Below are positions 44,761 through 61,517 of a stretch of 64,000 bases of DNA, piece by piece. The notes beneath the pieces were generated by a model that worked only from the letters and a program-made list of their open reading frames with translations, searched no databases and was not told the origin of the DNA. The position numbers were made by a program, and so were the translations under genes. Source of the stretch: Frigoribacterium sp. Leaf263 (lineage in GTDB: Bacteria; Actinomycetota; Actinomycetes; Actinomycetales; Microbacteriaceae); assembly GCF_001422285.1 (NCBI RefSeq), contig NZ_LMMO01000004.1:498983-562982 (forward strand), given 5' to 3'. Position 1 is the first letter of the stretch. Every line of letters begins with the position of its first letter.

Positions 44761-46104
44761 ATGATCCGATCCACCAAAGGCCTGAAGGCTCTGGCGCTCG
44801 CAGGGGCCGCCTCCGTCCTTCTGGCCGCCTGTTCGTCGACGTCGTCGACTCCGTCGGAGGGCTCGTCGTCGTCGCCCTCGGCCTCGGCGTCGCAGAAGGC
44901 CGACCCCGCAGCATCGTGCGAGGCTCCCAGCAGCCCCGGACAGGACGCCCTCCGCATCGGCACGATCCTGCCGAACACGGGAACCCTCGCCTACCTGGCA
45001 CCGCCCGCCGAGGCCGGCATCGGCCTCGCGGTCGAGGACATCAACGCCGCCGGCGGCGTGCTCGACCAGGACGTCGTCGTCGAGCCCCGCACCGACTCCG
45101 GTGACAGCAACGACCTCACCGTCTCGAGCGCCGCAGCGACGCAGCTCATCGACGCGAAGGTCCCGGTCGCGATCGGCGCCGAGTCGTCCAGCGTCACGCT
45201 GAACGTCATCGACCAGCTGACCGCCGCCTGCATCGTCGAGATCTCGCCGGCCAACACGGCGTCCGCGCTCAGCGGCTACTCGTCGTACTACTTCCGCACC
45301 GCGCCGCCGGACTCCGTCCAGGGCTCGGCCCTCGGCACGCAGATCGTCAACGACGGTCGCGCCAACGTCGCGTTCCTCGTCTTCAACGACACCTACGGCA
45401 CCGGTCTCCGTGACGCCGTCCAGGAGTCGGTGGAGGCCTCGGGCGGCTCCGTCGTCTACGGCGGCACCGGCGAAGGCCAGGAGTTCCCTCCCGGTCAGAC
45501 GACCTTCTCGTCCGAGGTGACGGCGGCCCTGGCCACCGACCCCGACGCGATCGTCATCCTCGCGTTCGACGAGACCAAGTCGATCGTCCCCGAGCTCGTC
45601 GCCCAGGGCGCCGACATGACATCCATCTACATGTCGGACGGCAACACGGCCGACTACAGCGAGGACTTCGACCCGGGCACCCTCGAGGGCGCTCAGGGCA
45701 CGATCCCCGGTGCGTTCCCCTCGACCGACCTGCAGAAGCGCTTCAACGACTTCTACCAGGAGAGCGCGGGCTCGGCCCTCACCGACTACTCGTACGCACA
45801 GGAGTCCTACGACGCCACCATGCTCGCCGCGCTCGCCGCGGTGAAGGGCGGCGGAACCGACTCCGGCACCATCCAGGCCAACATGGCCTCGGTGTCGGGC
45901 GCCGACGGCGGCACCGAGTGCGCCACCTTCGCCGACTGCAAGACGGCGATCGAGGCCGGCGACGACATCGACTACACCGGCCCTTCGGGCATCGGACCGT
46001 TCGATGACCAGAACGACCCGTCGAGCGCCTTCATCGGCATCTACAAGTTCGACGGCGACAACAAGATCGTCTACCAGACGGCTGTCGAGGGCTCGGTCCA
46101 GTAA
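44761..46104 (+). CDS. Branched-chain amino-acid-type ABC substrate-binding lipoprotein
   Basis: The 447-residue product has a lipoprotein signal: basic start, hydrophobic core and LAAC with Cys24 as lipidation site, then a Ser/Thr linker. The Periplasmic-binding-protein type I domain follows (ALRIGTILPNTGTLAYLAPPAEAGI, INAAGGVLDQDV, VAIGAESSSVTL, FRTAPPDSVQG, DGRANVAFLVFNDTYG, YAQESYDATMLAALA). It should deliver amino acids or similar compounds to the LivHMGF proteins, which are encoded on the other strand and converge on it. An AT-rich 108-bp upstream region includes TAGTTT and TAGTGT boxes and a GAAAGGG site. Confidence 0.9.
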   Translation: MIRSTKGLKALALAGAASVLLAACSSTSSTPSEGSSSSPSASASQKADPAASCEAPSSPGQDALRIGTILPNTGTLAYLAPPAEAGIGLAVEDINAAGGVLDQDVVVEPRTDSGDSNDLTVSSAAATQLIDAKVPVAIGAESSSVTLNVIDQLTAACIVEISPANTASALSGYSSYYFRTAPPDSVQGSALGTQIVNDGRANVAFLVFNDTYGTGLRDAVQESVEASGGSVVYGGTGEGQEFPPGQTTFSSEVTAALATDPDAIVILAFDETKSIVPELVAQGADMTSIYMSDGNTADYSEDFDPGTLEGAQGTIPGAFPSTDLQKRFNDFYQESAGSALTDYSYAQESYDATMLAALAAVKGGGTDSGTIQANMASVSGADGGTECATFADCKTAIEAGDDIDYTGPSGIGPFDDQNDPSSAFIGIYKFDGDNKIVYQTAVEGSVQ

Positions 46105-46121
46105 CTCCGTCCCTTCTCCAG

Positions 46122-46155
46122 CGGAGGCCCCGGCGCGTGTGCGCCGGGGCCTCCG
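46122..46155 (+). terminator. Terminator after the binding-protein gene
   Basis: A perfect 15-bp stem (46122-46136 with 46141-46155) with a GTGT loop, 17 bases after the stop, followed by TCGTGCG. Confidence 0.85.
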
Positions 46156-46245
46156 TCGTGCGTGCGGTGCGTGTGGTGCGCGTGGTGCGCGTGGTGCAAG
46201 CGGCGCGTGCGGTCAGCGCGTCCAGCGCGTCCGTCCGGCGCGGTC

Positions 46246-46282
46246 GAGGGGTCGGAAGATGCCTTCGCGGCCCGGTTCGACG
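46246..46282. repeat. REP-like palindrome, partial copy A
   Basis: GGTCGGAAGATGCCTTCGCGG matches the left arm and loop start of copies B and C; the right arm is missing or decayed. Confidence 0.55.
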
Positions 46283-46292
46283 TTGCCCCGGA

Positions 46293-46349
46293 TGCTCGAG
46301 TGGTCAGAAGGTGTCCTTCGCGGCGTGTGGAAGGGCATCTTCTGACCAC
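46293..46349. repeat. REP-like palindrome, copy B
   Basis: After GCTCGAG comes an inverted repeat with 20-bp arms (46300-46319 with 46330-46349). The outer 11 bp (GTGGTCAGAAG / CTTCTGACCAC) are perfect and the inner part has G-T wobbles; the loop is 10 nt. Confidence 0.85.
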
Positions 46350-46402
46350 CCGGGGCTCCCGGGAGGGTGCGGGTCCGGGTCCGGGATCGGATGCGCCGCG
46401 TC

Positions 46403-46459
46403 TGCTCGAGTGGTCGGACGGTGTCGTTCGCGGCGTCTGGAAGGACATCTTCTGACCAC
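46403..46459. repeat. REP-like palindrome, copy C
   Basis: Same GCTCGAG lead and layout as copy B (arms 46410-46429 and 46440-46459), with more arm mismatches. Right-arm and loop sequence is nearly identical to copy B. Confidence 0.8.
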
Positions 46460-46489
46460 CCTGGGTCGCGGGGCGGGATGATGCCGCCC

Positions 46490-46600
46490 GCACGACGCGA
46501 GCCCGGCACGGCGCGAGCCCGCACGGCGCGAGCCAGCACTACGCGAGCCCGCACGGCGCGAGCCCCGCACGGCGCGAGCCCCCCCCACGACGCGAGCACC
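46490..46600. repeat. 15-nt tandem repeat
   Basis: About seven imperfect units of GCACGGCGCGAGCCC, some lengthened by extra C residues. No protein-coding signal; not a CRISPR array because there are no spacers. Confidence 0.8.
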
Positions 46601-46610
46601 ACGGCACGAC

Positions 46611-46643
46611 GGAGGCCCCGCACGTCGAGCGTGCGGGGCCTCC
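46611..46643 (-). terminator. Terminator of the livHMGF operon
   Basis: A perfect 13-bp stem (46611-46623 with 46631-46643), 7-nt loop, 26 bases beyond the livF stop. Confidence 0.82.
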
Positions 46644-46669
46644 GGGGCGATGCGGGTGTCGCGTCGGCG

Positions 46670-47458
46670 TCAGTGCGACTCGTCGACGTCCTTCGCGAGC
46701 GTGCCGAGGTACAGCTCGATCACCTTCGGGTCGTCCGCGAGCTCGCGTCCGGTGCCCGAGTAGGCGTTGCGGCCCTGGTCGAGCACGTAGCCGCGGTCGC
46801 AGATCTGCAGGCAGCGGCGGGCGTTCTGCTCGACCATGATGACCGAGACGCCTGCCTTGTTGATGCGACGGGTGCGGATGAACGTCTCGTCCTGGCGGAC
46901 GGGCGACAGGCCGGCCGACGGCTCGTCGAGCAGCAGCACCTTCGGGTCCATCATCAGCGCGCGCGCCATGGCGACCGACTGGCGCTCACCGCCCGAGAGG
47001 GAGCCGGCGCGCTGGCCGCGACGGTCGCCGAGCACGGGGAACAGATCGTAGATGTACTCGAGTCGCTCGGCGAACTTCTTGGGGCGGAGGAACATCCCCA
47101 TCTGCAGGTTCTCCTCGATGGTGAGCGACGGGAACACGTTGTTCGTCTGCGGCACGAACCCGACGCCGGCCTGGACGAGCTTGTTGGCCTTCAGGTTCGT
47201 GATGTCCTCGCCGCCGAGCGTGACGCCGCCCGAGTGGATCTTGACGAGGCCGAACAGGGCCTTCAGCAGCGTCGACTTGCCGGCGCCGTTCGGGCCGATG
47301 ATGCCGATGAGCTCGCCGGGGTAGCAGACGAGGTCGCAGCCGTTGAGGATGTTGACCCCGGGCAGGTAGCCCGCCACGAGGTCGCTGGCGTTCATGATCG
47401 GTTCGATGCCCGCGAACTTCTCGGTTCCCGGGTGCATCTGGGTGGTCGAGGCGCTCAT
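46670..47458 (-). CDS. livF: Branched-chain amino-acid ABC transporter ATP-binding protein LivF
   Basis: The 262-residue product is an ABC ATPase with Walker A GPNGAGKST, Q-loop FVPQTNNVFPSLTIEENL, signature SLSGGERQSVAMARAL, Walker B VLLLDEPSAGLSP and the switch His replaced in context by IMVEQNARR, typical for LivF. About 30 N-terminal residues precede the first strand. The start overlaps the livG stop by four bases (ATGA). It is the last gene of the operon. Confidence 0.92.
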   Translation of the reverse strand: MSASTTQMHPGTEKFAGIEPIMNASDLVAGYLPGVNILNGCDLVCYPGELIGIIGPNGAGKSTLLKALFGLVKIHSGGVTLGGEDITNLKANKLVQAGVGFVPQTNNVFPSLTIEENLQMGMFLRPKKFAERLEYIYDLFPVLGDRRGQRAGSLSGGERQSVAMARALMMDPKVLLLDEPSAGLSPVRQDETFIRTRRINKAGVSVIMVEQNARRCLQICDRGYVLDQGRNAYSGTGRELADDPKVIELYLGTLAKDVDESH

Positions 47459-59192: not shown

Positions 59193-59657
59193 ATGCCTCC
59201 CAAGCCCCGGCAACGCGACATCCCGAAGATCCCGGGTGCGGTGAAGTTCTATCGCATCGCGGCGTACGTCACCGGCGTGATGCTGCTGCTGCTCATCTTC
59301 GAGATGGTGTTCAAGTACACGCCTCTGCAGCTCGAGATGCAGCTCGGCGGCGAGGGCGGGTTCCTCGTCCCGAAGGACTCCATCACCACCGGGTTCAACC
59401 TGTCGACGGCGATCCTCATCGCGCACGGCTGGCTGTACGTCGTCTACCTCTTCGCCGACTTCCGCCTCTGGAGCCTGATGCGGTGGCCGTTCTCGCGGTT
59501 CCTCATCATCGCGCTCGGCGGTGTCGTGCCCCTGCTGTCGTTCTTCGTCGAGAGCCGCATGACGAAGCTGGCGCTGCGCGAGCACGCCGCACTCGTGGCC
59601 GACGCGCCGAACAGACCCGACCAGACCACCCCGAAGCCCCAGGGAGCATCCGCGTGA
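59193..59657 (+). CDS. DUF3817 integral membrane protein
   Basis: The 154-residue protein has three transmembrane helices. The family pattern is visible: [50 protein letters not shown], and [19 protein letters not shown] short Pro/Gln tail ends it. DUF3817 proteins are actinobacterial and uncharacterised; some lie next to respiratory or nucleotide genes, as here beside SURF1 and guaA. The stop overlaps the guaA GTG by four bases, so the two are co-translated. Confidence 0.87.
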
Positions 59658-61240
59658 CAGAAGCCACCGAGACCGCCCAGAGCCCCGTGCTCGTCGTCGA
59701 CTTCGGGGCGCAGTACGCGCAGCTGATCGCCCGACGCGTGCGCGAGGCCAACGTCTACTCCGAGATCGTGCCGCACACGATCACCGCAGCCGAGATCGCG
59801 GCGAAGAACCCGGTCGGCATCGTGCTGAGCGGCGGACCGTCGAGCGTCTACGAAGAGGGCGCGCCCGGTCTCGACCCGGCGATCCTCGATCTCGACGTGC
59901 CCGTGCTGGGGATCTGCTACGGCTTCCAGGCGATGGCCAAGGCGCTCGGCGGCGAGGTCTCGCAGACCGGGCAGCGCGAATACGGCGCGACCGACGTCAC
60001 GCTGGTGCCGGGCGAGAGCACGCTGCTCTCGGGTCAGCCGCTCGAGCAGACCACCTGGATGAGCCACGGCGACTCCGTCTCGAAGGCCCCCGAGGGCTTC
60101 GACGTGCTCGCCTCGAGCGCGTCGACCCCCGTCGCGGCGTTCTCGAGCGACGCGCGCAAGCTGTACGGCGTGCAGTGGCACCCCGAGGTCAAGCACTCGT
60201 CGTTCGGCCAGGCCGTGCTCGAGAACTTCCTGCACCGTGCCGCGGGCATCCCCGCCGACTGGAACAGCGGCAACGTCATCGCCGAGCAGGTCGCGCGCAT
60301 CCGCGCCCAGGTCGGCGACTCGCGCGTCATCTGCGGTCTCTCGGGCGGGGTCGACTCGGCCGTCGCTGCGGCGATCGTGCACGAGGCCGTCGGCGATCAG
60401 CTGATCTGCGTCTTCGTCGACCACGGCCTCCTGCGTGCCGACGAGCGTCGCCAGGTCGAAGAGGACTACGTCGCCTCGACCGGTGTCCGCCTCGTGACGG
60501 TCGACGCCGAGCAGCAGTTCCTCGACGCGCTCGCCGGTGTCACCGACCCCGAGCAGAAGCGCAAGATCATCGGGCGCGAGTTCATCCGCAGCTTCGAGGG
60601 CGCCGCCGAGGCGCTCGTGCTCGAAGCCGCCGCCGACGGCGAGTCCGACGTGAAGTTCCTCGTGCAGGGCACGCTCTACCCCGACGTGGTCGAGAGCGGT
60701 GGAGGCACGGGTACGGCGAACATCAAGAGTCACCACAACGTCGGGGGGCTCCCCGAAGACCTGCAGTTCGAGCTCGTCGAGCCCCTCCGCACTCTGTTCA
60801 AAGACGAGGTCCGCGCCATCGGCCGCGAGCTCGGCCTGCCCGAGGTCATCGTCGGACGCCAGCCGTTCCCCGGCCCCGGTCTCGGCATCCGCATCGTCGG
60901 CGAGGTGACGCACGAGCGCCTCGAGCTGCTGCGCGCCGCCGACGCCATCGCTCGCGCCGAGCTGACGGCCGCCGGCCTCGACGACGAGATCTGGCAGTGC
61001 CCCGTCGTGCTGCTGGCCGACGTCCGCTCGGTCGGAGTCCAGGGCGACGGCCGCACCTACGGTCACCCGATCGTGCTGCGCCCGGTCTCGTCGGAAGACG
61101 CGATGACGGCCGACTGGACGCGCCTGCCGTACGACGTGCTCGCCCGCATCTCGAACCGCATCACGAACGAGGTCGCCGGGGTCAACCGCGTCGTGCTCGA
61201 CGTCACGTCGAAGCCGCCGGGGACGATCGAGTGGGAGTGA
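59654..61240 (+). CDS. guaA: GMP synthase (glutamine-hydrolysing)
   Basis: Converts XMP to GMP with glutamine and ATP. The 528-residue product has a class I glutaminase domain ([51 protein letters not shown] with nucleophile Cys, [10 protein letters not shown] with His/Glu), then the PP-loop ATP pyrophosphatase ([21 protein letters not shown]) and the dimerisation domain ending [15 protein letters not shown] 59654 overlaps the DUF3817 stop; an in-frame start 171 bp upstream lies inside that gene and is rejected. Confidence 0.97.
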
Positions 61241-61286
61241 CGCGCAGCGCCGCTCCCGAGATCTGACCGGTCTCCGCGACTGGTCC

Positions 61287-61322
61287 GAAGACGCCCTTCA
61301 CGGTCTCGTGAGGGGCGTCTTC
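61287..61322 (+). terminator. Terminator after guaA, related to the REP-like palindrome
   Basis: Arms 61287-61301 and 61308-61322 (10 bp perfect plus five with one wobble), loop GGTCTC, 46 bases after guaA. With its flanks (TGGTCCGAAGACGCCCTTCACGG) it looks like a diverged copy of the GTGGTCRGAAG palindrome seen at 46293-46459. Confidence 0.7.
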
Positions 61323-61347
61323 CGTCGGGCTGGGGCGCGTGCCGCTC

Positions 61348-61404
61348 TGCTCGAGTGGTCGGAACATGCTCGTCGCGGGTTCAGGAGGAGCATCTTCCGA
61401 CCAC
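61348..61404. repeat. REP-like palindrome, copy D
   Basis: After GCTCGAG, arms 61355-61374 and 61385-61404 pair with two mismatches; the outer part GTGGTCGGAA / TTCCGACCAC matches copies B and C. It lies in the convergent guaA/Bax-inhibitor spacer. Confidence 0.8.
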
Positions 61405-61465
61405 TCGATGAGCCGAGAGAGCGACGCCCGGGCTGGACTGCTCGCGCACGCCGCTCCATACGGAA

Positions 61466-61497
61466 GCGGGGCCCGCTCCTCTCGGAACGGACCCCGC
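61466..61497 (-). terminator. Terminator of the Bax-inhibitor-1 family gene
   Basis: A 10-bp stem with one wobble (61466-61475 with 61488-61497), 20 bases beyond the minus-strand stop codon. Confidence 0.65.
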
Positions 61498-61517
61498 CTC
61501 GGGTGCAGCTGTGTCGC

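Follow-up and report, generated by a model that had tools for sequence, protein, structure and literature searches.

Two intergenic spacers in a 64,000-nucleotide stretch of the Frigoribacterium sp. Leaf263 genome (C4:498983-562982, hereafter the window) carry long palindromes that resemble one another. An earlier note, made from the letters of this DNA, had likened them to REP elements, which are usually spread by RAYT transposases, and had named the lack of further copies as the outcome that would leave only local duplication. The question raised by the locus is whether these palindromes form a dispersed family and, if so, which gene accompanies them.

A dispersed palindrome family in the window, the genome and the genus

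The element is a 58-bp palindrome in which two 24-bp arms, TCGAGTGGTCRGAAGATGCCCTTC and GAAGGGCATCTTCYGACCACTCGA, enclose ten free bases. The covariance model used for its detection (R1) was built from 19 copies of the genome and covers 58 positions and 24 pairs. Copies B, C and D are real, their model coordinates lying 3-4 bases downstream of those first given, and D has the lead and arms of B and C with a different loop. The GCTCGAG lead proposed as common to B and C was confirmed, while their loops, described as shared, are identical at 9 of 10 bases. Copy A is partial, as had been reported, and the original list of copies was incomplete, a diverged copy beside D having been overlooked. As single-stranded DNA, copy A folds no better than its shuffles (z +1.06); the folding z-scores of B, C, D and the extra copy are -5.9, -2.1, -8.6 and -5.5, respectively, with 7 of 200 shuffles folding as well as copy C. 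The window has no match to any Rfam family at gathering scores, and inspection by eye found no run of T following any of copies B, C and D, whichever strand is read. A tandem repeat with the unit GCCCGCACGGCGCGA occupies window positions 46486-46624, immediately after copy C in the liv spacer.

Table 1 Palindromes and element-bearing spacers of the window. The gene names guaA and liv are taken from the earlier note.
Feature	Position	Strand	Description
Spacer with copies A, B and C	46105-46669	.	Between converging genes 44761-46104 (+) and 46670-47458 (-)
Copy A	46244-46266 (about)	.	Lone half-site, single arm GGGTCGGAAGATGCC without partner arm
Copy B	46296-46353	.	Full 58-bp palindrome, 24-bp arms, 10-nt loop GCGGCGTGTG; 73.5 bits
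Copy C	46406-46463	.	Full palindrome, loop GCGGCGTCTG; 60.3 bits
Spacer with extra copy and copy D	61241-61517	.	Between guaA-like gene 59654-61240 (+) and minus-strand gene with stop at 61518
Extra copy adjoining D	61276-61328	.	Diverged; 35.3 bits, E 8.6e-6
Copy D	61351-61408	.	Full palindrome, TCGA at both ends; 74.6 bits

Searching the 3.24 Mb genome with the model identified 33 distinct copies in 25 spacers (E up to 0.05), none of the 33 lying inside a predicted gene. Sixteen of these spacers are convergent, seven tandem and two divergent. The earlier statement that all elements lie between converging genes thus holds for both window spacers but not genome-wide, where just 16 of 25 are of this kind. 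Within the window, convergent spacers make up 4 of the 31 spacers of at least 60 bp, and two of those four hold elements. It should be noted that genes were called with a simple codon-usage caller, so that single starts and orientations may err, and that the table of spacer contexts is limited to gene calls scoring above 18. Two sister genomes, G004 and G015, each have one element within a predicted gene (L116, L120). A genome search with the arm pattern returned 13 matches versus 0 for a reversed control and one with a 13-mer allowing at most one mismatch returned 36 versus 0; these counts show that the repeats are not a product of chance.

The element was found in 15 of 16 genomes of the genus and not in G003, this survey of relatives, the negative genome included, having been run with stricter filters. 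Named carriers are Frigoribacterium faeni NBRC 103066, in which a strict pattern finds 47 or more intact copies, and Frigoribacterium sp. CFBP 13712. The palindromes are thus a dispersed, spacer-borne family of REP size, as the earlier note had supposed, with further members in relatives. Outside the genus, weaker matches were found in 9 of 44 genomes. The 21 loci examined in these nine genomes are mostly palindromes of similar size with different arms, for example in G036, of the same family, and G041, of another family of the order; the matches in G042 and G051 are not element-like. In G036, the model gives 16 places, two of them around the gene described below, and three other places that were examined have the same arms as this pair. 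A BLAST search with the window element returned no match in plasmids.

Other repeats occur in the same kind of spacer. A second palindrome, CTATTACGCAT..ATGCGTAATAG, lies about 70 bp or less from the 58-bp element in two spacers of this genome (L006, C3 near 1086820; L018, C4 near 783240), and a degraded form of it is present in a third (L002). At L114, L118 and L121, many spacers between small genes bear the element and gene content varies by species. Integron-like attC cassettes were considered for these alternating clusters and set aside, as gene orientations are mixed and pairing with a nuclease-like gene explains more.

A nuclease-like gene between copies of its own palindrome

The Y1 transposase family PF01797 had 0 matches in the window's own genome and in all 16 genus genomes, and 6 of 14 control genomes were matched. 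RAYT, the partner suggested by the earlier note, and Y1 transposases in general were rejected on these grounds and because the palindromes track another gene. This gene is bracketed by elements on both sides at L113, in the window's own genome, and at L115, L117 and L122. A homologue in G041 lies between that genome's two best-scoring elements, and two of the 16 places in G036 likewise enclose one; in G026, the best-scoring element adjoins the homologue and a second palindrome lies on its other side. The copy in the window's own genome (G000:C4:268468-269274) is the sole match there at E<=1e-8 and is located on the same contig as the window, about 230 kb from it. Three diverged relatives of the window palindrome surround it (25.6-44 bits), and those downstream, TTGGTCAGAAGGTGCCCTTC..GAAGGGCGACTTCTGACCACC, are near copy B in sequence. 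The F. faeni protein is encoded at L107 3407-4510 on the minus strand.

The encoded protein has two recognizable parts. Across an alignment of 76 sequences (A3, comprising 72 of the 79 sites tested below and four earlier ones), the rear part matches PF18741 (REase_MTES_1575) in 66 members and PF04480 (DUF559) in 33 at E<=0.01, with the Frigoribacterium proteins scoring under the curated Pfam cut-offs. The front part is matched by AbiEi models, of which the best one hits 28 members of the alignment. Against the PDB, the A3 profile had only two hits above noise, 3hrl ('Endonuclease-Like Protein', E 0.0012) and 3r3p ('Mobile intron protein', E 0.0035); the narrower profile A2 had found no meaningful relative there. 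All 76 sequences share E170 and D230, while D203, E214 and H220 are each conserved in at least 90% of them. A conserved pattern of acidic residues and histidine is expected of an EDxHD-type active site, and we infer catalytic roles for these residues. The partner is thus a putative fusion, judged from sequence, of an AbiEi-like front to a Vsr/EDxHD-type PD-(D/E)XK nuclease-like domain, and it probably cuts DNA. A structure model computed from a single sequence without alignment reached a pLDDT of 31.9 and was unusable for assigning a fold.

Using profile A2 (E<=1e-8), the gene was found in 45 of 60 relatives. Of the 16 genus genomes, 15 carry it by this profile, compared with 7 when PF04480 alone is used, and G003 is the sole one of the 16 without gene and without element. 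With one negative genome and stricter filters in the element search, this co-occurrence is by itself weak evidence. The A2 search identified no relative in viral contigs. Homologues do occur on Arthrobacter plasmids, one annotated example being a 'hypothetical protein'. G018 has nine matches to the nuclease profile, and five of the six sites fetched (L224-L229) have their own palindrome pair by the relaxed test.

The association of gene and palindrome was examined at 79 gene sites from 34 genomes and 21 genera, chosen by protein similarity. They derive from 84 places with E below about 1e-31, of which four had been fetched earlier and one (G018:C2:1051655) was left unfetched; the test covers places of this strength. 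Palindromes were detected by a de novo scan blind to the Frigoribacterium sequence (20-bp arms, at least 17 paired, loop of 4-18). The strict test counted those within 350 bp of the gene, with other genes of the same stretches as controls. Strict palindromes flank 24 of the 79 homologues on both sides, compared with 0 of 274 other genes (Fisher p about 1e-17), and are present on either side of 51 homologues and 39 controls. Leaving out the four seed sites, which had been picked for having elements, gives 20 of 75 on both sides and 47 of 75 on either. The 24 strict loci come from 18 genomes, 12 genera and 5 families. A relaxed partner search was positive for 47 of 79 homologues versus 1 of 261 controls; two of the 47 (L189, L194) look like GC-rich artefacts, so that 45 remain. 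By neither test was a palindrome found at 23 homologues, including the main gene of G009. A GC-rich, terminator-like hairpin, CGCAGGAGGCGCGGTGC..GCACCGCGCCTCCTGCG, recurs in numerous spacers of Frigoribacterium at a distance from the nuclease gene (L180, L182, L190, L191, L192, L194, L195, L196 and others) and may explain part of the one-sided positives among control genes.

The two palindromes at one gene match each other. At the 24 strict loci, the best left-right pair agrees at 17.2 of 20 arm positions, compared with 8.8 of 20 between loci of different genomes; being nearly symmetric, the flanking repeats have no evident orientation. Twelve further gene-free copies were found in ten loci within the same 10 kb, some directly beside the flanking pair. 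Three genes on Arthrobacter plasmids provide an independent check (tblastn, at least 16 of 20 pairs): two are matched on both sides and the third on one. In Arthrobacter sp. StoSoilB13, the palindrome beside this third gene (L296 5270-5319) has a gene-free relative on another plasmid of the strain (L297 3578-3623). Palindromes change fast: when loci from different genomes are compared, 14 or more of 20 arm positions agree in 11 of the 19 pairs whose protein score ratio is at least 0.5, versus about 19 of 1028 below that ratio, and the overall correlation of palindrome with protein similarity is weak (Mantel 0.08; 157 of 2000 permutations as high).

Anatomy of the palindrome and presence or absence of a unit

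Dyad alignment of palindromes from 53 loci, from which the GC-rich artefacts L189 and L194 as well as L235 had been left out, revealed little sequence in common apart from an outer CGA tag. At 46% of loci (locus-weighted), the tag is placed precisely 28 bases away from the dyad; no other tested position has it in more than 9%. Size and outer tag are thus retained while the arms change. REPs carry a GT(A/G)G or CGTC head at one of their ends. The window copies begin with TCGAGTGG and have GTGG four bases inside the end; over the 53 loci, the GTGG positions just inside CGA are each 42-50% conserved.

The two arms of an element are coupled. In the window's own genome, arms of one element match at 10.26 of 14 positions versus 8.97 when arms are dealt among elements (0 of 2000 permutations), and in three other genomes 17, 22 and 68 of 2000 permutations were as high. 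This test involved no selection on pairing and covered four genomes, with fewer loci than a second analysis of 182 elements, which was restricted to elements matching at 11 or more of 20 arm positions, a cut that favours pairing. Among the 182, arm positions 7 and 18 pair poorly (0.59 and 0.53), and the loop bases pair at chance at its outer positions (0.29-0.30) and at 0.42 in the centre. Shuffles of the first 19-copy alignment (A1) alone gave mixed support for covariation. These pairing patterns speak for a folded form that is either recognised as such or copied through.

One whole unit is present in some genomes and absent from others at the same place. A unit with the palindrome TGTCACGACGTGCCGCTCAC lies between PEP mutase- and nitroreductase-like genes (names by eye) in G010 and G009, and in G013 and G015, where the same flanks are 94-95% identical, about 6 bases replace 1167 bp. 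G008 has the same empty sequence as G013 and G015, and G004 a slightly different empty one, with flanks at 88-93%. The empty state of these two more distant genomes makes acquisition by the G009/G010 line the simpler interpretation. This was the only empty site found. It has no clear target duplication, some 25-30 bases on the right are part of neither state, and the self-complementary TCGA ends make any reading of a target duplication ambiguous. Ten more genomes of the genus have a spacer too divergent for comparison, with another palindrome in those of G006 and G012 (by eye), and two gene-free presence/absence cases between G004 and G015 (mostly 92-97% identical) are not clean. Movement of the element is thus documented in part.

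Competing readings, proposed mechanism and known systems

We estimate at roughly two in three the probability that the palindromes of the window lack the gene and represent non-autonomous members of a selfish element with two parts, REP/RAYT-like but with an unrelated nuclease. The data show the palindrome family, its link to the gene, the likeness of left and right copies, the coupling of the arms and a complete unit that two genomes have and their relatives lack at the same site; that the protein recognises its palindrome, cleaves it and so drives its spread is what we infer. Other readings assign the palindromes a different role.

An unlikely one is that the AbiEi-like front is a repressor binding palindromes at the ends of its gene, the dispersed copies being immobile regulon or nucleoid sites. 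AbiEi proteins are known for autoregulation, which an upstream palindrome would fit; the matches of the front part to AbiEi-type models are in line with this, and the constant spacing of half-sites would suit a dimer. A matching palindrome is, however, present after the stop codon as well, and the dispersed copies of the genome lie mostly between gene ends, with only 2 of the 25 spacers being divergent promoter spacers. Moreover, the nuclease part keeps its acidic and histidine residues, the unit is present or absent as a whole, and the two arms of an element co-vary, a feature for which a plain dimer site would have no need.

The palindromes could instead be bidirectional terminators or mRNA-end hairpins selected between converging genes, with incidental spread. 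Their strong hairpins, maintained palindromy and frequency in convergent spacers (16 of 25) would be expected under this explanation. We consider it quite unlikely, since the conserved sequence is longer than a hairpin requires, no U-tract was seen by eye, 9 of 25 spacers are non-convergent, one congener was without the element in the search, and the element is tied to one gene family on both sides of the gene.

A REP, MITE or similar passenger of a known transposase (RAYT, another Y1 enzyme or an IS) that is absent or unnoticed here appears very improbable. The missing PF01797 matches across the genus and the tracking of another gene speak against such a passenger, despite a REP/REPIN-like shape and dispersal and the likeness of GTGG in the Frigoribacterium arms to the GT(A/G)G head of REPs as given in the portions of PMC2817692 and PMC3116915 cited here. 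Local duplication without a dispersed family, which the 9 of 10 loop bases shared by B and C in one spacer might have suggested, can practically be dismissed given copies throughout the genome and in relatives.

For the two-part selfish element, we propose the following mechanism. The autonomous unit would consist of palindrome, nuclease gene and palindrome, about 1.1 kb in all. Through its front domain, the protein would recognise its own palindrome, the form recognised probably being a cruciform or a single-strand hairpin, and the enzyme would cut it, with repair or rejoining placing or copying the palindrome into spacers. Gene-free palindromes would borrow the enzyme in trans. Each gene line would alter its palindrome, leading to the differences between genera. 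Copies would settle mostly between converging genes, where a hairpin would do little harm and may even serve as a bidirectional terminator.

In actinobacteria, the gene is often enclosed by a pair of its own palindromes, an arrangement that points to a type of selfish DNA not yet described. It seems to us somewhat more probable than not that this is a separate class of bacterial mobile element, with a Vsr-type endonuclease carrying an AbiEi-like recognition domain as its sole protein and 56-58 bp palindromes as ends that are recognised in folded form, gene-free copies being spread as well. Such a class would be an independent counterpart of REP/RAYT, occurring in several families of the order, with enzyme and palindrome changing together. 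Among the open-access titles and abstract beginnings listed, none dealt with palindromes paired with DUF559, MTES_1575 or Vsr-like genes. If correct, the proposal would suggest a function for actinobacterial proteins found in 45 of 60 relatives and known only as DUF559, MTES_1575 or AbiEi-like. It would also mean that palindromes of the REP kind had arisen together with a nuclease that has no relationship to HUH transposases, and would provide nucleases for which the sequence flanking each gene directly reveals the cognate site. Dozens of predicted enzyme-palindrome pairs (24 strict, 45 relaxed) make the question directly testable.

Among known systems, AbiE type IV toxin-antitoxins resemble the protein in its front part, which matches models of the antitoxin AbiEi; the protein described here differs by bearing a nuclease-like domain and being bounded by palindromes. 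EDxHD/Vsr-like homing endonucleases of group I introns are related in the sequence of the nuclease domain, as seen in the match to 3r3p, which we take to be I-Bth0305I. In contrast to these, an AbiEi-like front is fused to the nuclease-like domain, paired palindromes bound the gene and many gene-free copies exist; no introns were seen within the window. The MTES_1575 REase, a novel Vsr-family REase, is connected to the protein through PF18741. It has been described within giant HEPN/helicase proteins, and palindromes are unmentioned in the part of that source drawn on here (PMC3710099).

The closest likeness is to REP/RAYT systems. As in the portions of PMC2817692 and PMC3116915 that describe them, the gene is flanked by its own palindrome, gene-free copies are dispersed in spacers, sequences are specific to genus or species, and compensatory changes and tandem clusters occur. 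The RAYT paper reports that homologues were not found beyond its own lineages. Here, the genus is without a Y1 match and the protein belongs, by its predicted domain, to the Vsr-type PD-(D/E)XK nuclease superfamily. The outer tags also differ, with CGA at a fixed distance from the dyad over the 53 loci versus GTAG at the very end. The element would work in a REP/RAYT-like manner but is not filed as a member of that group, because its associated protein, a putative nuclease, is unrelated.
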